Shown: one piece after another, positions 3,228-34,078 of the stretch
How the letters are laid out: the number at the start of each line of letters is the position of its first letter
Numbering within the stretch: the first letter of the stretch is position 1
NCBI RefSeq assembly: GCF_000317635.1
Contig: NC_019779.1
Span: 496,001-560,000, forward strand
From: Halothece sp. PCC 7418
GTDB lineage: Bacteria > Cyanobacteriota > Cyanobacteriia > Cyanobacteriales > Rubidibacteraceae
Direction of reading: 5' to 3'
DNA: 64,000 nucleotides
Translations under genes and position numbers: made by a program
Notes under the pieces: generated by a model
The model's database searches: none
Told to the model about the DNA's origin: nothing
Seen by the model: the letters and a program-made list of their open reading frames with translations, nothing else

Positions 3228-3959
3228 CTAGGGCGTGGCAATCAACTGTAAAATGCGATCTACGTTGTCCCACTCGCCAACAATCCGTCGCACTGGTTCT
3301 GGATAGAGGCGAACTAAGGTCGGAGTTGCTGAAACTTGATTTAACTCCGCCTGTTCTGGATGCTTCATAATATCGACAACTTTTAACGTATAAGAATTAC
3401 TGAGTTTTTGTTCTAACAGGCGATGTAGAGTGGTGAGGGCTTCTGTTGTGCTATGGGAGTGTCCAGAGACAAATAAGCGTAAAATGTAGCTGGTAGGGGC
3501 GGGGACAGGGGATTGAGATCGGGTAGGTGCTTGCTCTAAAGGAGTCCCTCGCAGCGACTCTAAATTAACCACTAAGTCATGATTCTCCCAAAGTTGAGGA
3601 AACTGTTCGTGATAGGTTTCCATGATTCTGGGGTCACCATACCCCTCTTGCCATGGTAAAACAGTCCATTGCTGTTGAATCCCAAAAATTGCATGGAGTA
3701 GAGGTTGATAGCGTTGTACTAACGGATACACCTCACAAGACACTTGTATCCGATTGGATTTCGGATCAAGCCACTGATCCATCGTTGCCGTATAAGCAGG
3801 AACAAGAAAGTGGGGAGATTCTTTAAGATTCAGTAACTCTTTTAAACCTTCACACAGGTCAAGATGCCAACGTTTGCTTTTATCAGCATCGAACCCATAA
3901 ATTAAATCTCCCCCTGGGGTAAATAAAGCAATACCTTTATAGGATTGATCATCACTCAT
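3228..3959 (-). CDS. KaiB-domain protein with N-terminal extension
   Basis: The last roughly 85 of 243 residues (from about 158) align by eye with the circadian clock protein KaiB: YILRLFVSGHSHSTTEAL, then the region around LKVVDIMKHPEQAE, then SATPTLVRLYPEPVRRIVG. KaiB has a thioredoxin-like, fold-switching domain that binds KaiC. The first 150 residues are an unrelated domain I do not recognise, starting near GIALFTPGGDLIYGFD. This is neither a stand-alone KaiB (about 100 residues) nor a SasA-type kinase, because no kinase domain follows. ATG start. The pilT-family gene lies 10 bp upstream on the same strand, so the two may be cotranscribed. A clock role is inference. Confidence 0.8.
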   Translation of the reverse strand: MSDDQSYKGIALFTPGGDLIYGFDADKSKRWHLDLCEGLKELLNLKESPHFLVPAYTATMDQWLDPKSNRIQVSCEVYPLVQRYQPLLHAIFGIQQQWTVLPWQEGYGDPRIMETYHEQFPQLWENHDLVVNLESLRGTPLEQAPTRSQSPVPAPTSYILRLFVSGHSHSTTEALTTLHRLLEQKLSNSYTLKVVDIMKHPEQAELNQVSATPTLVRLYPEPVRRIVGEWDNVDRILQLIATP

Positions 3960-3969
3960 GATTGATCAT

Positions 3970-5262
3970 TTAAACGCGTCCACGAAGCATTTGCGCCATT
4001 TCATTGGGCGTTGGCGACCATTCGAGGGCAGTTTCTTCGCTAATTCGTCCTTCCTGATAGAGTTGAAACAGGGACTTATTCATGGTCATCATACCATCAT
4101 ATTCCCCATCAAGCATCAATTCGGTAATTTCGTCATATTTGCCATCCCGAATGTACTCCTTCACGGTTTCGGTGTTGATCAAAATGTCATGAAAGGCAGC
4201 CCGTTTGCCATCCGTGGTGCGACATAACCCTTGGGAAATCACCGATACTAAAGACTCCGCAATGGCAACCCGCATGGCAGGTTGTTCTTCTGGGCTATAA
4301 AGGCTTAAAATCCGTTCTAGGGTTTTCACCGCACTGTTGGTGTGTAAAGTTCCCATGACCACGTGACCCGTTTGGGCTGCTTTCAGAGCCGTGTTGACGG
4401 TTGCGCGATCGCGCATCTCCCCAATTAAAATCACGTCTGGATCTTCCCGTAAAGAGGCTTTCAAGGCGTGATCAAACTCTAGGGTGTGCATTCCCACTTC
4501 CCGTTGACGGATTAAAGCCCTCTGACTCTGATGGACGAACTCAATGGGATCTTCAATGGTGATAATATGCTTAGGCATCTCCTGATTAATATAATCCACC
4601 ATTGCAGCCAACGTTGTTGACTTACCAGACCCCGTGGGACCTGTTACCAAAATCATCCCTTTGTGATAATGGCAAATATCCTTAAACACCGCCGGTAACT
4701 TCAACTGTTCCATCGTCAAAATTTTCAAAGGAATCAGTCGCAAGACCATCCCTGGCCCGTTAAGAGTATCAAACACATTAATCCGCACCCGAGCAAAATC
4801 ATATTGCGTCGCCCCATCAAATTCTAAAGTGGTTTGAAACTTCTCCACTTCTTCTTCGGTGAGGATTTCATATAACCAACTCATAAACGTATTCTGGTCA
4901 GTCTCGGGATAATCGGAAGAATCCATTTCTCCCCGGTTGCGGAAACGAGGAACTTCTCCCACCCCCAAGTGAATATCGGAAAATCCCTCTTCGTTGGCTT
5001 TATTGACAATATCAGCTAACGTCGGTTGTCCTTTCGATGGCGAGGGTTTAGGCTTCGGTCGAAAGGTGGCTTTTCTTTGCCCTGAAGGGGGAGGCGGAGG
5101 GGGCATTGCTCCTTTTTTCTGTGAGGGCATTTGTTGCGTCACATCCGACTCAGTGTGGGCTTCGGTGACCTCCTCTTGTTGCCGATTTTGAGGCGTGCGA
5201 GGGGGAGGTGGAGGGGGGGAGATTACTGGGGCGAGATTGCGGTTGTCTAACCATAATTGCAC
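3970..5262 (-). CDS. pilT: PilT-family type IV pilus retraction ATPase
   Basis: Hexameric ATPase that powers pilus disassembly and twitching at the inner membrane. Residues from about 90 onward carry the family signature: Walker A GPTGSGKSTT, acidic residues in ITIEDPIEF, Walker B around DVILIGEMRD and the His box GTLHTNSA. The C-terminal segment after TVKEYIRDGK corresponds to the AIRNLIRE region of PilT but is divergent. The N-terminus (about 90 residues) is a low-complexity, proline-rich extension with runs of P and Q. The length of 430 is close to the longer PilT paralogue of cyanobacteria. The start must be GTG at 5262, because TAA at 5284-5286 closes the frame upstream; no good ribosome site is seen. 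Confidence 0.93.
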   Translation of the reverse strand: MQLWLDNRNLAPVISPPPPPPRTPQNRQQEEVTEAHTESDVTQQMPSQKKGAMPPPPPPSGQRKATFRPKPKPSPSKGQPTLADIVNKANEEGFSDIHLGVGEVPRFRNRGEMDSSDYPETDQNTFMSWLYEILTEEEVEKFQTTLEFDGATQYDFARVRINVFDTLNGPGMVLRLIPLKILTMEQLKLPAVFKDICHYHKGMILVTGPTGSGKSTTLAAMVDYINQEMPKHIITIEDPIEFVHQSQRALIRQREVGMHTLEFDHALKASLREDPDVILIGEMRDRATVNTALKAAQTGHVVMGTLHTNSAVKTLERILSLYSPEEQPAMRVAIAESLVSVISQGLCRTTDGKRAAFHDILINTETVKEYIRDGKYDEITELMLDGEYDGMMTMNKSLFQLYQEGRISEETALEWSPTPNEMAQMLRGRV

Positions 5263-5386: not shown

Positions 5387-6457
<1,071 letters not shown>

Positions 6458-18385: not shown

Positions 18386-18880
18386 ATGTCTGTACGTCTT
18401 TACGTGGGCAATTTACCAAAAGATACAGTAGAAAGACAAGAACTGCAAGAAGTTTTTGGCGAGGCGGATGAGTCTTTATCCATTAAAGTGATTAAAGACC
18501 GCAAAACTGGAAACTGTCGTGGGTTTGCTTTTGTCACTGTTCCTAATGATGAAAAAGCAGAAGAAATTATTGAAAAATATAATGGTCAGACCTTCCGAGA
18601 AAATGCTTTAAAGATTGAAAAAGCACAGCCTCGGAATAAAAACAAAGGTGATGAAAATGCAGCAGAAGGGGGAGAAAAAGAGGGATCAGAAGCCCGTGAA
18701 TCTTCTCGTCCGACCAAGCAGAAAAACAAAGAAGGTGGATCAAAACGACGGGGGAAAGGGAATAAAAAATCCAAACAACCGGCAACGACCAGCAGTGGTA
18801 ACACCTCTAACCAACCAGATCCCCGTTGGGCTGATGAACTGGCAAAACTTAAAGAAATGCTCAGTGCAGTTGAGAAATAA
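18386..18880 (+). CDS. RRM-type RNA-binding protein
   Basis: Residues 1-80 form one RNA recognition motif with RNP2 LYVGNLP and RNP1 RGFAFVTV, typical of the cyanobacterial Rbp family, many of which respond to cold. The remaining 84 residues are a hydrophilic tail rich in K, E, G and S, longer than the short glycine tail of most Rbp proteins. ATG start preceded by GTGAGGTATTTCTT, a good ribosome site. A structured leader lies upstream, which would fit post-transcriptional control, but that is inference. Confidence 0.92.
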   Translation: MSVRLYVGNLPKDTVERQELQEVFGEADESLSIKVIKDRKTGNCRGFAFVTVPNDEKAEEIIEKYNGQTFRENALKIEKAQPRNKNKGDENAAEGGEKEGSEARESSRPTKQKNKEGGSKRRGKGNKKSKQPATTSSGNTSNQPDPRWADELAKLKEMLSAVEK

Positions 18881-18892
18881 CTCTCGTTGTTA

Positions 18893-19021
18893 TTTGTTCT
18901 TTGGAAAAATTTAGTAACGAATTAGGAATCAATAACCAAAGTGATGTTATACCACTTTTAAAAAAGAAAGACGACCTTGTAGGGTGGGCATTGCCCACCC
19001 TACTTTTTTCATGATTAATTA
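18893..19021. repeat. 128-bp direct repeat, left copy
   Basis: Matches 19722-19849 with one single-base indel and about four substitutions over 128 bp. It runs from TTTGTTCTTTGG to CATGATTAATTA and contains a complete terminator hairpin. The two copies bracket exactly the toxin-antitoxin genes. Confidence 0.93.
18979..19009 (+). terminator. Rho-independent terminator after rbp
   Basis: GTAGGGTGGGC, ATT loop, GCCCACCCTAC (11-bp perfect stem) followed by TTTTTT, 98 bp after the rbp stop. Part of the left direct repeat. Confidence 0.85.
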
Positions 19022-19070
19022 GGGCTTGGAGGAAATTGCTACTTGTTGTCAAATCTGAAAGTATAATAAT

Positions 19071-19415
19071 ATGGCACGAAAAACTAGACCAATTTCGTGG
19101 ATTAAAGCTGCTCGGAAAGACTTTGAGGCTTTTCCTGCTGATGTACAATTGGAAGCAAAGCGAGCCCTAACAGTAATTGCAGATGGTGTAACCCCTGATA
19201 TTGCCAAGCCCTTAAAAGGTTTAGGTTCTGGTATCTCAGAGCTTGTTTTGAGAAATAGAGGCGATGCTTACCGTGTTGTCTATGCCTTACAACTTGATAC
19301 AGATATCTGGATTATTCATGCTTTTCAAAAAAAATCGAAGCGAGGGATTCAAACACCGAAAGAAGAAATTGATTTAGTTCGTCAAAGATTAAAGCGTTTG
19401 AAGGAGCAACTATGA
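19071..19415 (+). CDS. RelE/HigB-like toxin of a type II toxin-antitoxin pair
   Basis: A 114-residue protein of the phage-derived Gp49/HigB-like group in the RelE superfamily, whose members cleave mRNA. Family features: ARKDFEAFPADVQLEAKRAL helix, KPLKGLGSGISELVLRNRGDAYRVVY core strands and IHAFQKKSKRGIQTPK, which carries the usual basic catalytic-site residues. The toxin precedes its antitoxin, as in HigBA, and overlaps it by 4 bp. ATG start at 19071. The pair lies between direct repeats, a sign of a mobile or excisable cassette. Confidence 0.88.
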   Translation: MARKTRPISWIKAARKDFEAFPADVQLEAKRALTVIADGVTPDIAKPLKGLGSGISELVLRNRGDAYRVVYALQLDTDIWIIHAFQKKSKRGIQTPKEEIDLVRQRLKRLKEQL

Positions 19416-19711
19416 CACAAGATGATCTGGACTTGGTTCGAGGTAGTGGTAATATTTTTCGTGACTTTGGCGATCAAAATGCTGATCTAGAACAATTAAG
19501 ATGTTTACTAGCTGCGGAAATTATTAAAGTTCTTGATGAACAAGCACTAACTGTTCGGGAAGCAAGCCAGAGAAGTGGCTTTGCTGCAGCAGATTTCTCT
19601 AGAGTCCGTCAGGTAAATTTAGGTCGATTCACCGTTGATCATTTAATGTTGATGCTGGAACGGTTGGATCAGAAAGTGGAAGTAAGTGTTAAAGTGAAGC
19701 AACAAACTTGA
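19412..19711 (+). CDS. XRE/HigA-like antitoxin
   Basis: 99 residues with a helix-turn-helix (LTVREASQRSGFAAADFSRVRQVNLGRFTVDHLM) of the XRE type used by HigA antitoxins; it should bind the toxin and repress the operon. ATG start within the toxin's stop region (ATGA overlap), so the two are translationally coupled. No separate operator was identified. Confidence 0.87.
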   Translation: MTQDDLDLVRGSGNIFRDFGDQNADLEQLRCLLAAEIIKVLDEQALTVREASQRSGFAAADFSRVRQVNLGRFTVDHLMLMLERLDQKVEVSVKVKQQT

Positions 19712-19721
19712 TTGATATCTC

Positions 19722-19849
19722 TTTGTTCTTTGGAAAATTTAGTAACGAATTAGGAATCAATAATCAAAGTGATGTTATACCACTTTTAAAAAAGAAAGAC
19801 GACCTTGTAGGGTGGGCAGTGCCCACCCTACTTTTTTCATGATCAATTA
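19722..19849. repeat. 128-bp direct repeat, right copy
   Basis: Second copy of the repeat at 18893-19021, about 97 percent identical. Its last bases form the stop codon of the convergent MscS gene (19847-19849). Confidence 0.93.
19807..19837 (+). terminator. Rho-independent terminator after the antitoxin
   Basis: GTAGGGTGGGC, AGT loop, GCCCACCCTAC, then TTTTTT. Lies inside the right direct repeat, 96 bp past the antitoxin stop and just before the convergent MscS stop, so it may serve both strands. Confidence 0.83.
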
Positions 19850-21517
19850 TGAAGACTTACCATTAGGAGACTGATTGTCTAACCATCCCGAAAGATGCGT
19901 GGAAAGTTGAGATAAGGATTGAGTGAGTTCGGGGGTTAATTCCACAGGTAAATTGCCACTGCGAACATGAAGATCGCGCTGGGGAAAAGGAATTTCTATC
20001 CCGCGTTCGGTAAAGAGTTTATAAATTAAAAAGTAGAGATCGCTTTTAATTTGAAATTGTTTGCGCGGTTCAGAAATCCAAGCAAGTAAATCAAAATCGA
20101 GAGAACTATCGCCAAAGCCGAGAAAAAACACATTGGGTGGCGGAATCGATAAGACATCTGTGTGATCATGAGCAGCATCAAGGAGCGTTTGGCGAACTAG
20201 TTCGACATTTGAGCCGTAAGCAACACCCGCTCGAATGCGGAGTCGAGAAACTGGGCTGCGGTGACTCCAATTGACCACTTCTGATTCTAAAAAACGAGAG
20301 TTCGGGAGAATAACGGAAACGCGATCGAGCGTGGTAATTTCAGTACTGCGGACACTAATATGTTCTACTGTTCCCACTAAATCTCCTACTTCTACAAAGT
20401 CTCCCGCTTGAATGGGGCGTTCAAAAATTAAGACTAAACCACTGACAAATTCTTTGGCAATTCCTTGAATCCCTAAACCGATTCCAACCCCTAAAACCCC
20501 TGCAAAAACAGTGAGCGAACTAATATCTAATCCCCAGATTTGCAGCAGCACCAACGCCCCAATTAAAACCAAGCTATAGTTGGCGACGAGAGCAATGGTT
20601 TCTTGTGCAGCCCGACTTAACCCCGTTAAACTCAACACTCGCAGTCGTAGGACTTGTTTAATACTCCGCGCCCCAATAAATAGGGCTGTAAATAAGGCAA
20701 TGAGGATAATTAAATCGAGAACTGAGTAGGCATTATTCCCCAAGGGAAATAAATCAGAGGTGAGACTATAAACGAGGGTATCCCGCAGTTGACGGCTGAG
20801 GTGTCGCGTTTGGGGAAATAAGGTGCTAATATAGCCCAACGCAATCAGTATGATGATGCTGCGTAAAAAGTTGAGAAAGACTTGAAAGGCAATAAAACGA
20901 GTATTAGTGCTGGAAAACGGTTGAGTATGAGACTCAGCAGGTGTCTCTGATTCTCTCAGATAAGGATTAATCCAGCGTTCACAAATTAAGCCAATTGCCC
21001 AAATCAGTAAGCCCGCAATGATAATAATGAGGATTGAGGCTAATGTCATTGGCACGAGATAACTTGCTGTCCTTTCCCGTTTTGCTTGCGCGATCGCGCT
21101 TTCAAGTTGCTGTTTCCAGATTCGGGCTTGTTCGTCTAAACTCCGTCCTTGGGGTTTGTCTTCGGGTGTCACTGAAAGTAAGTGATTACCATTGATCTTT
21201 AAGACGGGTATGGTTTGACCATTATCCACCGTCACGTTAATAGTGACCTCTTCCTCTTCCTGTAAGGGTGAAATATTTTCACGAATAATCCGATTCAGAG
21301 TTCGATTCGCATCTTCAGCACGCTCTTTAGCCGTAAATTGACCCGAAGCGGTCACTTCAAAAACCACTTTCCCATCCACCAAAATGGGAGCAGAATAATT
21401 ATTTTGCGCTGCTACGGGTAGGACAAATAAAGAAAAACTGAGAATAAACGTACAGATGCTCAGGAGAGCAGTTTTCACTCTTATGAGGTGCATTCTTAAT
21501 TTTTGTTCATTGTTCAT
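19847..21517 (-). CDS. MscS-family mechanosensitive ion channel
   Basis: 556 residues: signal peptide ending near LPVAAQNN, a periplasmic domain of about 120 residues, a membrane helix near 155-180, further helices (about 220-340), the conserved pore helix and loop (VFAGVLGVGIGLGIQGIAKEFVSG), then the cytoplasmic beta domain (GDFVEVGDLVGTVEHISVRSTEI) and C-terminal domain. It would release solutes on osmotic downshock, or form a related small-conductance channel. The start could be ATG 21517 or ATG 21493 (MHLIRVK); the first eight codons of the longer form lie in repeat DNA. Convergent with the toxin-antitoxin cassette. Confidence 0.92.
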   Translation of the reverse strand: MNNEQKLRMHLIRVKTALLSICTFILSFSLFVLPVAAQNNYSAPILVDGKVVFEVTASGQFTAKERAEDANRTLNRIIRENISPLQEEEEVTINVTVDNGQTIPVLKINGNHLLSVTPEDKPQGRSLDEQARIWKQQLESAIAQAKRERTASYLVPMTLASILIIIIAGLLIWAIGLICERWINPYLRESETPAESHTQPFSSTNTRFIAFQVFLNFLRSIIILIALGYISTLFPQTRHLSRQLRDTLVYSLTSDLFPLGNNAYSVLDLIILIALFTALFIGARSIKQVLRLRVLSLTGLSRAAQETIALVANYSLVLIGALVLLQIWGLDISSLTVFAGVLGVGIGLGIQGIAKEFVSGLVLIFERPIQAGDFVEVGDLVGTVEHISVRSTEITTLDRVSVILPNSRFLESEVVNWSHRSPVSRLRIRAGVAYGSNVELVRQTLLDAAHDHTDVLSIPPPNVFFLGFGDSSLDFDLLAWISEPRKQFQIKSDLYFLIYKLFTERGIEIPFPQRDLHVRSGNLPVELTPELTQSLSQLSTHLSGWLDNQSPNGKSS

Positions 21518-29186: not shown

Positions 29187-32100
29187 ATGTACACAGAAGA
29201 AACTCAATCTAACACTCCAGAAGTTGTCAATCCTAACGCTTCTAATCCTGAGCAAGAGCGGAATTTTGATGTTGGGTCGGATCTCAAGCACTTTCAGAGC
29301 AGTTTACAAAGTCTGAAGCAAGAACTGTCGAGAGTCAGGGGCTTAGAGCGAACAGAAATCTTGAATAAACTGCAACAAATTGAAAGCATTGGTCATCATT
29401 TTGAAGAATGGATCAATGAACCCAGTATTGGTAATGGGAATGGGGGAAACGGGTCAAAAACTTATTCTTCCGCCCAACGGGAACAAATTTTGGAACTGGC
29501 GCAACAAATTCAAGAGTGCCAAGAGTTACAAACGCTGTTGAATTTAGTTTGTCAGGAAACTTTGAAGATTAGCCAAGCCCAACGGTGTTTTGTCTATCAA
29601 TTTGATGGGGAAGAACAAGGGAAAGTCCTTGCTGAGCGTGTCGAACGAGGTTGGACTCCTGCCAAAGGGGAAACCCTTCCTGCGACAATGTTTGGTCGCG
29701 ATGAAGCTCAGGAATATTTGCAAAGCGCGATCGCTGCGATTAATGGGACTGATCGCGCCACCCCTTACCAACAACAACTGCTCGATCGCTATCAAGTGCA
29801 AAGTAGTCTCGCCCTCACACTACGCATTGACGGTAAACCCTGGGGCTTGCTGGTGGTTCACAGTTGCCAAAGCGCACAACCTTGGTCAGAAGACACCATC
29901 AATGTTCTTTATCAAATTAGTACCGAACTTGCCCTGAAACTAGCCAGTTTTGACTATCAAGAACAGGTAAAACAAGAGAAAAATCGGGAACAAACCAAAG
30001 TTGCGCTTATTTCTCGCATTCGCCAATCTCAAGACTTAGACAGTATCTTTGAAGTGGCTACTCAAGAGATTCGTCGCGCCCTACGCTGCGATCGCGTGGG
30101 AATTTATCGGTTTAATGAAGACTGGAGTGGCGGGTTTGTCGCCGAAGCTGTCACCACAGGCTGGACACCCGTGATTAACTCCGATGATCCCGCAGGGGAT
30201 GTTAAAAACGACTGTAGCTTGCGGATGTTAGGGGGAGAAAGACGCGCCCGAGAAAGTGAAGACACTTATCTCCGCGATACCCAAGGCGGAGGTTATACCC
30301 AAGGGAAAAAATATAGCGTCGTCAACGACATCTATGAAATGGGCTTTCCCCGTTGCTATCTCAACCAGTTAGAAAAATACGAATGTCGCGCCTATATCAA
30401 CGTTCCCATTTTCCAAGGGGAAAAACTGTGGGGCTTAATGGCTGCGTATCAAAATAGCGGACCCCGCCAGTGGACAGAAGAAGAAAAAGACTTGATGGTG
30501 GAAGTGGCTGATCCCCTCGGTGTTGCCCTCAATCAAGCCGAATATATCGAAGAACTGCAAAAACAAACCCAACGAGAAGCAGCGCAAGCTCAACAAGAAA
30601 AAACCAAAGCCAATATCATCTCTCGGATTCGGCAAACTCAAGACTTGGATCAAATTTTCCAAGTGACCACTCAAGATCTGCGGAAAGTCGTCAACGCCGA
30701 TCGCGCAGTTGTTTATCAATTTAATGAAGATTGGAGTGGACAAGTCGTTGCTGAATCAGTGACAGGCGGTTGGGTTTCCCTGCTCGTAGAACAAACCAAT
30801 GACGAAGTTTTAAGCAGCGATCGCACCAGCAATGACCGTTGCACCCTCCGTAAATGGTCCAGTGGCGATATTACAGACCGTGATACCTACTTACAAGAAA
30901 ATCAAGGCGGAAAATACAAAGACGGCAAACGCTACACCGCCATTAACGACATTTATGAAGCCAACTTCCCCGCCTGTTACATTCAATCTCTGGAAAAATA
31001 TCAAGCCCGTGCTTACATCATTGTTCCCATCTTCCAAGGGGATAATATTTGGGGCTTACTCGGAATCTACCAAAACGATGGCCCCCGCCTTTGGCAAGAA
31101 ACCGAAATTGATCTCTTAGTGCAAGTCGGGGATCAACTCGCCGTTGCCCTCCAACAAGCGGAATTTGTCGAGCAACTGAAACAGAAAAACGAACAACTCG
31201 CCCAAGGGGTAGAACGGGAAAAAACCACCTCGAAAATTGTGGATCGCATTCGTCGCACCCAAGAAGTGAACGCCGTTTTCGAGAATACCACCCAAGAGAT
31301 GCTGAACATCTTAAAAGCCGAACGGGTGGCGTTGTATAAGTTTTATGAGGATTGGAGCGGTGAATTTGTTGCCGAATCCGTTGCTTCGGGTTGGAAACGC
31401 CTCGTGGGAACAGATGAAGCCAGAGTGAAAGACACTTACCTCAAAGACAATGAAGGGGGACGTTACGCCCTAGGGCAGAATCATGTTGTCCCTGATATCT
31501 ACAAAGAAGGCTTTGACCCCTGTCATGTGGAACTGTTAGAAACCTTCCAATGTCGCGCTTATATTCTAGTTCCCGTATTCCAAGATGATGTCTTGTGGGG
31601 CATTTTGGGCGTTTATCAAAATGGTGCGCCTCGCCAATGGCAAGACAGTGAAGTGCAACTGACCCGACAAGTGGCGACTCAGTTTGGGGTTGCTCTCAAA
31701 CAAGCGCAATATCTTGAACAAATTCGGAAACAATCAGAAGAACTTGCAGAAGCAGCAGAGCGGGAACAAGCAGCATCCAAGATTGTAGATCGGATTCGTC
31801 GCACTCAAGAAGTCAAAGCCGTTTTTGATAACACCACCCAAGAAGTTCTTAATGTTCTCAAAGCCGAGCGGGTGGCGTTGTATAAGTTTTATGAAGATTG
31901 GAGCGGGGAATTTGTTGCAGAATCCGTTGCTGCGGGTTGGAAACGCCTCGTGGGAACGGATGAAGCCAGAGTAAAAGACACTTACCTCAAAGATAATGAG
32001 GGGGGACGGTACGCTTTGGGTCAAAGCCATGTTGTGCCTGATATTTATGAAGAAGGCTTTGATCCCTGCCATGTTGAACTCTTAGAAACCTTCCAATGTC

Positions 32101-33860
32101 GCGCTTATATTCTTGCTCCTGTTTTCCAAGACGATAAAATCTGGGGTATTTTAGGCGTTTATCAAAATAGTGCGCCTCGCCAATGGCAACAAAGTGAAGT
32201 GCAACTGACCCGACAAGTGGCGACTCAGTTTGGGGTGGCTCTCAAACAAGCACAATACTTAGAACAAATTCGCTTACAAACCGAAGAACTTGCCGAATCT
32301 GCGGAACGAGAGCAAGCCGTCTCGAAGGTGGTTGATAAAATTCGTCGCTCTCAAGATGTGAAAACCATTTTTGATACCACAACTCAAGAAGTGCGCTTGT
32401 TACTGAAAGCAGACCGCGTGGGACTCTATCAGTTTGGAGACGACTGGAGTGGGGAGTTTGTCGCTGAATCTGTGGCTACGGGTTGGCAGCCCTTAGTGGG
32501 AACTGAAAGCGCAAAAGTTAAAGATACCTACTTACAGGAAAATAAAGGCGGTCGTTACGCCCGAGGCGATAGTCATGTCGTTCCCGATATCTATCAAGAA
32601 GGGTTTGATTCCTGTCATTTAGAACTGCTAGAAACCTTCCAGTGTCGCGCTTATATTCTCGTTCCCATTTTCCAAGATGATGTCTTGTGGGGCATTTTGG
32701 GCGTTTATCAAAATGGGGAAGCCCGCCAATGGCAAGAACAAGAAGTGAAACTATTACGACAAATTGGGGTACAGTTAGGGATTGCCTTAAAACAGGCTGA
32801 GTTTTTAGCCCAAATTCGCGAACAGTCAGAACAGTTAGCACAAGCAGCAGAACGGGAACGGAAGGCAAAAGAGCTCTTACAACGACGGGCAATTGAACTC
32901 TTAACCGCAGTTCGTCCCGCTTTAGATGGAAACTTAACCGTCCGTGCGCCCGTTACTGATGATGAGTTAGGAACGATCGCGGATGCTTATAACAATACTC
33001 TCAAAGGCTTGCGTCAAATTGTCGTGCAAGTCCAAGAAGCGGTGGAAAAAGTGGGACAAACCTCCACCGAGAGTGATGAAGCCATTAATCAACTTTCGGA
33101 ACGAGCAACTCAGCAGTCTCAAGCACTGACAGGAGCTTTAGACCAAGTGGAATCCATGACTCATGCAACGCAAGATGTTGCTAACAATGCCCAAGCCATT
33201 AATGAAGCGGTACAGAAATCCAATCAAACCGTGTCTTCTGGGGATGCTGCCATGAATCGGACTGTCGATGGGATTCAAGGGATTCGCGATGCGGTCTCGG
33301 AAACCAGTCGCAATATTCGTCAACTTGGGGAATCCTCCCAGAAAATTTCTCGCGTGGTTAACCTGATTAGCGACTTCTCGAAACAAACCCAGTTACTCTC
33401 CCTTAATGCGTCCATTGAGGCGACTCGCGCTGGTGAATACGGTCGTGGGTTTGCCGTGGTTGCGGATGAAGTGCGGTCTCTCGCCCGTCAGTCTGCGGAT
33501 GCAACGAAAGAGATTGAAGACTTAGTGGCGGAAATTCGCAATCAAACCAGTGAAGCGATTAAAGTAACTGAACGCGCCATTGCTCAGGTTAGTGCAGGAA
33601 CAAACCTGGTGCAAGAAGCCAAAGAAGAGTTAAACGCGATCGCTGCTGCAACTGGAGAAATCAGTAAACTGGTGGCAGGCATTACCGAAGCCAGTCAAGG
33701 ACAACTGCAACAGTCGCAATCGGTAACCCAAACCATGCAAGAAGTAGCGGAAATTGCCAACGCGACATCCGAACAATCCAACGCCCTCTCTGCTTCCTTC
33801 AAAGAAGCCCTAGATACCGCTCAACAACTGCAAGCTGCGGTTGATAAGTTCACGATCTAG
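29187..33860 (+). CDS. Soluble MCP with six GAF domains, several of cyanobacteriochrome type
   Basis: 1557 residues without a membrane helix. GAF1 about 105-255, GAF2-6 follow to about 1200, then HAMP (about 1230-1285) and an MCP signalling hairpin (tip [20 protein letters not shown]). GAF4, 5 and 6 have the bilin-binding Cys-His (residues 779, 961, 1143) in [16 protein letters not shown]-type motifs after a DTYL...GGRY stretch, as in red/green cyanobacteriochromes. GAF2 and GAF3 have Cys-Tyr at the same place (390, 597); GAF1 has none. This suggests a light sensor for phototaxis, cytoplasmic. GAF4 and GAF5 are near-identical. ATG at 29187. Confidence 0.92.
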
Positions 33861-33923: not shown

Positions 33924-34078
33924 TATAGCACTTCCCAATCTCATGAGGTACATTCTAAATTTTGGTTCTTTGTTCTTCGTTCTTTGTTATTTGTTGGTTG
34001 TTAATCAATGAACCACGAACCATGAACCATGAACATCCACCGACTCGCTTTGTACCTCAACCAACTAGGAAACGCTAT
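33924..34078. mobile_element. MITE-like element, copy A
   Basis: 155 bp with imperfect terminal inverted repeats: TATAGCACTTCC at the left and GGAAACGCTATG at the right, plus TGAGGTACA/TGTACCTCA further in. The same sequence lies at 46979-47118 in the opposite orientation, differing mainly in the number of heptamer units in the centre. No ORF. TATA ends are consistent with TA-targeting (IS630-like) elements, which is inference. Confidence 0.85.

Follow-up and report, generated by a model that had tools for sequence, protein, structure and literature searches.

A predicted HigBA-like toxin–antitoxin pair framed by 128-base direct repeats in Halothece sp. PCC 7418, probably entered by long target duplication

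How does a two-gene toxin–antitoxin (TA) operon come to stand between two nearly identical direct repeats, one of which reaches into the end of a neighboring gene? The locus in question lies in Halothece sp. PCC 7418, within a 64,000-base stretch of contig NC_019779.1 (positions 496,001 to 560,000; hereafter the window), where the pair separates the convergent genes rbp and mscS (Table 1). A sequence-only reading had described 128-bp direct repeats beginning at 18893 and 19722, about 97% identical, holding exactly two TA genes, with a terminator in each copy and with the stop codon of mscS supplied by the right copy. This anatomy is borne out. The copies align with 96.9% identity over 129 columns, differing by three substitutions and one 1-base indel, and their starts lie 829 apart. 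Gene and Pfam calls place a Gp49 toxin gene and an HTH_37 antitoxin gene between them and nothing else. The mscS stop codon (19847-19849, minus strand) forms the final three bases of the right copy, and each copy contains the terminator-like hairpin GTAGGGTGGGCAnTGCCCACCCTAC, with 11 pairs and a following T6, on the plus strand only. The left copy begins after 12 bases beyond the end of rbp, and the distances from the repeats to the enclosed genes are 49 bases on the left and 10 on the right.

Table 1. Features of the rbp-mscS locus, in window coordinates
Feature	Position	Strand	Basis or remark
rbp, RRM-type RNA-binding protein gene, left neighbor	18386-18880	+	PF00076; NCBIfam Rbp_regulator below cut-off
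Left direct-repeat copy	18893-19021		129 bases
Inner part of left repeat, member of the genome's dispersed repeat family	18941-19003		whole-genome matches
Terminator-like GTAG-tagged palindrome, left copy, then T6	18979-19003	+	terminator scan
Probable operator TTGTCAAATCTGAAA and TATAAT -10 box	19046-19067	+	upstream regions compared by eye
Toxin gene, Gp49 family, HigB-like order	19071-19415	+	PF05973, E 2.8e-18
Antitoxin gene, HTH_37, HigA-like	19412-19711	+	PF13744, E 1.9e-18; PDB 2o38, E 7.7e-11
Right direct-repeat copy	19722-19849		128 bases; mscS stop codon at its end
Terminator-like palindrome, right copy, then T6	19807-19831	+	terminator scan
mscS-family mechanosensitive channel gene, right neighbor	19847-21517	-	PF00924, PF21082

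The enclosed pair is predicted to be a type II TA operon of the HigBA-like kind. Like HigBA-type and Gp49–HTH_37 modules, it places the toxin gene first, with the 3′ end overlapping the antitoxin start (19412-19415), carries the same domains, and has a probable palindromic operator upstream. The one solved HigB found (6af3) matches its toxin at E 0.39, and the structure matched by the antitoxin, 2o38, is that of a hypothetical protein. The earlier label of HigB/HigA-type stands for gene order and domain class, but neither protein receives a name from any NCBIfam or PADLOC model. An antitoxin homologue occurs within 200 nt at 90 of 100 homologous toxin loci. By eye, a TTGTCAAATATGACAA-like palindrome precedes most of the 27 homologous toxins displayed from these 100 loci. 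The corresponding operator here, TTGTCAAATCTGAAA, has a right half that is degenerate relative to this palindrome, with TATAAT behind it; a consensus promoter scan did not find this operator/-10 region. With a promoter/operator directly upstream of the toxin gene, the insert would comprise little more than a promoter and two genes.

The frame is not a product of chance, since a repeat of at least 40 bases and at least 80% identity within 200 bases frames 0 of 291 random intervals (641 bases each) drawn from the window. The two TA genes are the only genes between the copies, with no recombinase or transposase gene among them, and no inverted repeat of at least 20 bases spans the insert ends. 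The unit, without transposase, integrase, or terminal inverted repeats (the last sought at 20 bases and above), thus stands within a direct repeat on the scale of 100 bases (129/128 bases, 96.9%). Restriction-modification genes are described as inserting in this manner, with a long and variable target duplication of the order of 100 bp (PMC1643837, PMC3031569, PMC3874152), an observation that the consulted parts of these papers trace to Nobusato et al. 2000. The likeness lies in a toxin/antidote-type unit without transposase, in the ~100-base direct duplication of the target, and in the comparison of related genomes; the differences are that the unit here is a type II TA pair and that the one-copy empty allele was not found at rbp-mscS. 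For TA pairs in general, a search of the open literature showed, among its best-ranked titles, no paper describing long target duplication, which does not prove that none exists.

The reading we favor, with confidence only slightly on the positive side, is that a foreign TA pair inserted between rbp and mscS with a long target duplication of ~128 host bases. A ~700-base type II TA operon, bringing its own promoter/operator and no recombinase, would have been gained horizontally and inserted into the short rbp-mscS intergenic region, and ~128 host bases would have been duplicated on either side. A likely route would have the operon captured, and the overhang copied twice, as the cell repaired a break with long staggered ends or as replication switched templates. 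We infer both this molecular route and the presence of the repeat at the rbp-mscS site before insertion. The sequence-only reading had proposed clean excision through the 97% identical 128-base repeat. Such excision would be possible, with recombination between the two repeats deleting the pair, although a functional toxin would select against that loss. It is more likely that the repeats record the entry of the pair rather than serve as a working excision device.

Consistent with an insertion, the congeners searched lack the pair. A close MscS homologue is present in 5/5 congeners, and in three of them rbp and mscS are convergent and directly adjacent without the pair, separated by 71 bases (G005), 63 bases (G002), and ~39 bases (G004). 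In the other two (G001 and G003), the genes lie far apart. No toxin homologue was found at E<=1e-15 in any of the five congeners searched, one of which (G004) is only 85% complete, and the repeat is absent beside mscS in all five. The sequence-only reading would have failed had all relatives kept both repeats and the genes, which did not occur. Its prediction of an empty site holds insofar as the neighbors adjoin without the pair in 3/5 congeners, but the single repeat expected there is absent. As no relative shows rbp, one repeat, and mscS in succession, target duplication at this locus is not proven.

The congeners are distant. Compared with the nearest, rbp differs at 31 of 61 fourfold sites and mscS at 120 of 215, roughly half, as against 4 of 129 columns between the repeat copies. 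With so few columns differing, the duplication or last homogenization of the copies is far younger than the split from the congeners. Scoring of the congener gaps against the repeat gave p values of 0.24-0.58 in 12 comparisons, and the test is powerless, with one pair of congener gaps scoring p 0.22 against each other. Because half of the fourfold sites differ and the gaps cannot be aligned above chance, the congener comparison cannot say whether the repeat preceded the pair.

The foreign origin of the pair is suggested by its phylogenetic distribution. Among the best 80 of 92 loci from a search of genome contigs, the closest toxin relatives are proteobacterial, at up to 73-74% identity, and the best cyanobacterial relatives among the matches listed are from Microcystis, at 57%. 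At E<=1e-30, the toxin has matches in only 3 of 388 genomes of the class, its own included. In a 99-row toxin tree, which has few columns, a poorly resolved inner order, and a midpoint root, the toxin falls in an 81-row group that is mostly proteobacterial and acidobacterial and includes four Microcystis-type rows; a branch with 100/99 support parts this group from 18 other cyanobacterial rows. With its nearest kin mostly in Proteobacteria and no copy in the congeners, the pair looks horizontally acquired. Its third-position G+C of 0.26 resembles that of rbp (0.29), which indicates that it has not freshly arrived from a G+C-rich donor.

The repeat, by contrast with the proteobacterial affinities of the toxin, is probably host sequence rather than proteobacterial baggage, because its inner element of 63 bases belongs to a dispersed family of the same genome. 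At least 10 other genomic places match 48-86 bases of the repeat at 77-91% identity, and many further copies of the 25-base palindrome lie apart from the pair. This search covered 4,179,170 bases in one contig and gave 78 match rows, with palindromes counted on both strands and 40 of 173 candidates scored. On the same basis, the full 128-base repeat was found only at the rbp-mscS locus, and its left 48 and right 18 bases were found nowhere else in the genome as part of a full repeat. Across 60 genomes (this one and 59 relatives, with at most 14 candidates scored in each), none of the relatives yielded the whole repeat, and the listed matches cover the palindrome and its surroundings. An Rfam search of the region returned nothing, the best match being to an unrelated family at E 0.47. 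The two repeat hairpins are among three terminator-like sites in the scanned region, where shuffled sequences give a mean of 1.2. They probably now end rbp transcripts before the pair and TA transcripts after it.

One alternative is single-crossover (Campbell-type) integration, in which a circle or other DNA carrying one repeat next to the pair recombined, reversibly, with the repeat at rbp-mscS. This would leave the same repeat-TA-repeat anatomy. The dispersed element within the repeat means that repeat-like sequence exists elsewhere in the genome, and plasmids often carry toxin homologues (438 records at E<=1e-5). The confinement of the full 128-base repeat to this one locus, in its own genome and among the 59 others, speaks against such a donor, as does the finding of no toxin relative on viral contigs. 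We consider this route rather unlikely, and a single crossover with a repeat-TA circle remains the main rival to target duplication.

Other Gp49 loci were compared for similar frames. At first look, 7 of 71 homologous loci (L118, L135, L147, L168, L172, L173, and L185) have direct repeats of some kind on either side of the toxin. All of these except L135 have repeats that are short or far from the pair or, at L172, lie in a repeat-full contig, and they failed the strict test described below. At L172, an acidobacterial homologue of the pair stands between 361-base repeats (3610-3970 and 5455-5813, 94% identical), with other dispersed repeats in the contig. A looser test framed 2 of 89 homologous loci (L135 and L070) against 0 of 218 random intervals and, in the order to which this genome belongs, two of 28 Gp49 loci (L217 and L218), three of the 28 being already in the first set. 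Applied to repeat-rich cyanobacteria, it framed 10 of 78 TA loci, one being L070 again as L293, versus 15 of 301 control intervals; these controls are gene-bounded, and the genomes are rich in dispersed repeats.

A strict frame was then defined as a repeat of at least 50 bases and at least 85% identity, with each copy no more than 250 bases from the unit and the fetched locus (~3-10 kb) free of any third copy. Strict frames occur at 5 of 189 Gp49 loci versus 3 of 604 control intervals, a modest difference (Fisher p 0.022) to be read with the facts that these thresholds were set after the looser run and that control intervals overlap. When the third-copy rule is dropped, the counts are 11 of 189 and 10 of 604 (Fisher p 0.004). 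Flanks were sufficient at 92 of 100 loci in the first set, of which L135 passes, and at 97 of 99 in the second, of which L217, L218, L279, and L283 pass. L218, with a repeat of 55 bases, is the weakest case counted. Duplicates of places in the first set were dropped from the second (L226, L228, L229, L231, L249, L262, L272, L286, L293, and L316), and the counts leave out both the rbp-mscS pair and a second Gp49 locus of the same genome, L206. The passing controls represent two places, L131 and L277, the latter as two overlapping intervals. L277 itself encodes a HepT/MntA TA pair (PF01934, PF01909) and was left among the controls; the pair is framed by 186-base direct repeats of 90% identity (3729-4920). 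Six further framed loci (L275, L284, L285, L287, L298, and L309) have repeats with additional copies in the locus and were excluded as evidence, and L070 (77 bases, 83%) and L248 (65 bases, 83%) fall under the strict identity.

The repeats of the strictly framed Gp49 cases are unlike one another, and several are gene ends. The clearest is L217 (genome G518), where a Gp49 pair lies behind lpdA and the last 113 bases of lpdA, stop codon included, are repeated after the pair at 95.6% identity. In a sister species (G449), a single lpdA end is joined directly to the downstream flank of L217 (410 of 523 query bases, 76%) in a locus without toxin. This independent case thus shows the one-copy empty site characteristic of a long target duplication. 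The two copies in G518 are identical to each other at 108 of 113 bases, and either one matches four sisters at 97-104 of 113. As the copies are closest to each other, duplication within the lineage is favored over import from another species. The G518 assembly, a draft (91% complete, 4% contaminated), leaves some chance of misassembly at L217.

Three other sisters (G475, G437, and G497) have the lpdA end and no toxin homologue in the fetched locus; of these, G497 alone showed a match to part of the downstream flank as well. In G497 (L352), 62 bases of the lpdA 3′ end recur as a separate piece at 93.5% identity ~2.3 kb downstream (520-581 and 2823-2884), again in a locus without toxin. The genes before this piece we take to be a leucine-rich-repeat-like gene and one other. 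As the piece stands without a toxin, duplicated lpdA ends are not tied to TA pairs alone.

Three further strict cases also touch gene ends. The L279 repeat has 87 bases at 96.6% identity, and its left copy stops 12 bases short of the end of a methyltransferase gene; in a search for its empty site among 13 genomes of the family, only its own genome matched. At L283, the repeat has 82 bases at 93.9% identity, and the right copy starts within an HsdS gene, 13 bases from its 3′ end. In its sister G528, a 3,087-base locus holds a single repeat copy and lacks the toxin, with the flank unmatched. The L135 repeat has 112 bases at 88% identity, and its left copy stops 6 bases short of the end of a glycosyltransferase-like gene. 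At the edge of its right copy, at ~3440-3500 in this Methylobacter locus, lie two GTAGGGTACGC-type palindromes inverted relative to each other.

L135 bears on a second alternative, in which the pair was already in place before the second repeat appeared, whether copied or acquired through recombination with DNA of another strain. Three Methylobacter sisters (L119, L127, and L142) carry the pair at the same gene with no second repeat copy, so that at L135 the second copy came later or was lost from the sisters, and the L135 copies are just 88% identical. The copies at rbp-mscS, at 97% identity and tight against the pair on both sides, fit this order of events poorly, and for this locus we regard it as improbable.

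A published cyanobacterial pair offers a close parallel. In Microcystis aeruginosa PCC 7806, two identical direct repeats of 152 bp, both of which contain an inverted repeat, enclose a ParE/ParD-like pair behind the MaOC1 orthocaspase gene; 14 bp separate the upstream stop codon from the first of them (PMC7935541). Both pairs are thus fenced by direct repeats a similar distance behind the upstream gene (12 bases here), but the Microcystis pair belongs to another TA family, has the antitoxin gene first, and has a different repeat. The consulted part of that paper gives neither an empty site nor an origin for the repeats. In strain FD4, the repeats are kept around the pair and the neighboring MaOC1 is absent (PMC7935541), a pattern also compatible with repeats that move along with the pair. 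Together, the FD4 repeats and the G497 piece slightly weaken our favored reading, as well as the wider reading given below, and slightly raise both the later second copy and the mobile unit considered next.

This third alternative is an excision cassette or composite element, with the repeats acting as recombination sites, either integron attC-like or ends moved by a REP/RAYT system, and traveling with the pair. Besides FD4, it draws on the palindrome in each repeat copy. GTAG-tagged REP palindromes, short hairpins of many copies reported from cyanobacteria, are of a kind linked to RAYT transposases (PMC3733652). The hairpin here is likewise short, GTAG-tagged, and present in many copies, although it makes up only 25 of the 128 framing bases. 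The genome also encodes one candidate RAYT, at L205 (G000:C1:2303613-2303972), with an open frame of 185 codons and a PF01797 score of 30 bits. We take this Y1 protein to be RAYT-like; the genome has, in addition, six full-length IS200/IS605-type TnpA matches and two fragments.

Several observations argue against such an element. The palindrome recurs without the pair, and no GTAG palindrome of the searched pattern flanks the RAYT-like gene within the 3.4 kb of L205. A MITE or REP/RAYT origin of the frame was given low weight. The insert ends lack spanning inverted repeats and the interior lacks a recombinase gene, as described above; attC core sites were assessed on the repeat by eye. Moreover, the other strictly framed Gp49 pairs carry repeats unlike each other, several of them gene ends. 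We therefore judge the composite element very unlikely.

Returning to target duplication, the rbp-mscS locus itself joins known cases, and the general pattern is the interesting part. The pair at rbp-mscS would have entered by the same route as the other framed cases. More tentatively, and with the balance of our judgment still against it, several TA families may spread as bare operons that insert with target duplications of 55-190 bases, often at gene 3′ ends. This wider reading would cover Gp49/HTH pairs (the present one, L135, L217, L279, and L283), the HepT/MntA pair at L277, and the published Microcystis ParE/ParD-like pair, and it would posit the same transposase-free route as has been proposed for restriction-modification systems. 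If it is true, addiction modules would belong together as a broad class of 'self-inserting' genes, retained through the death of any cell that loses them. A recent and cleanly framed pair, other Gp49 scars, and one single-copy empty site provide natural junctions from which the insertion route may be inferred. In our view, the transposase-free movement of small TA pairs between genomes is poorly explained.

The genome holds other repeat-associated features. At L206 (G000:C1 ~864236-867508), the second Gp49/HTH pair stands in a cluster of small addiction-type pairs, the others of which are presumably YoeB/YefM-like, BrnT/BrnA-like, and HicA/HicB-like, Gp49 alone having been identified through a family search. 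HIP1-rich repeats of 27-79 bases, 81-95% identical, lie between these pairs. Within the window, both framing repeats start with a TTTGTTC-type heptamer, and arrays of TTTGTTC-type heptanucleotides occur at 10-160, 14384, 21493, and 33946-34002. A separate repeat at 31191-32705 comprises three copies spaced 546 bases apart; over stretches of 300 bases they are 68-88% identical to the reference.
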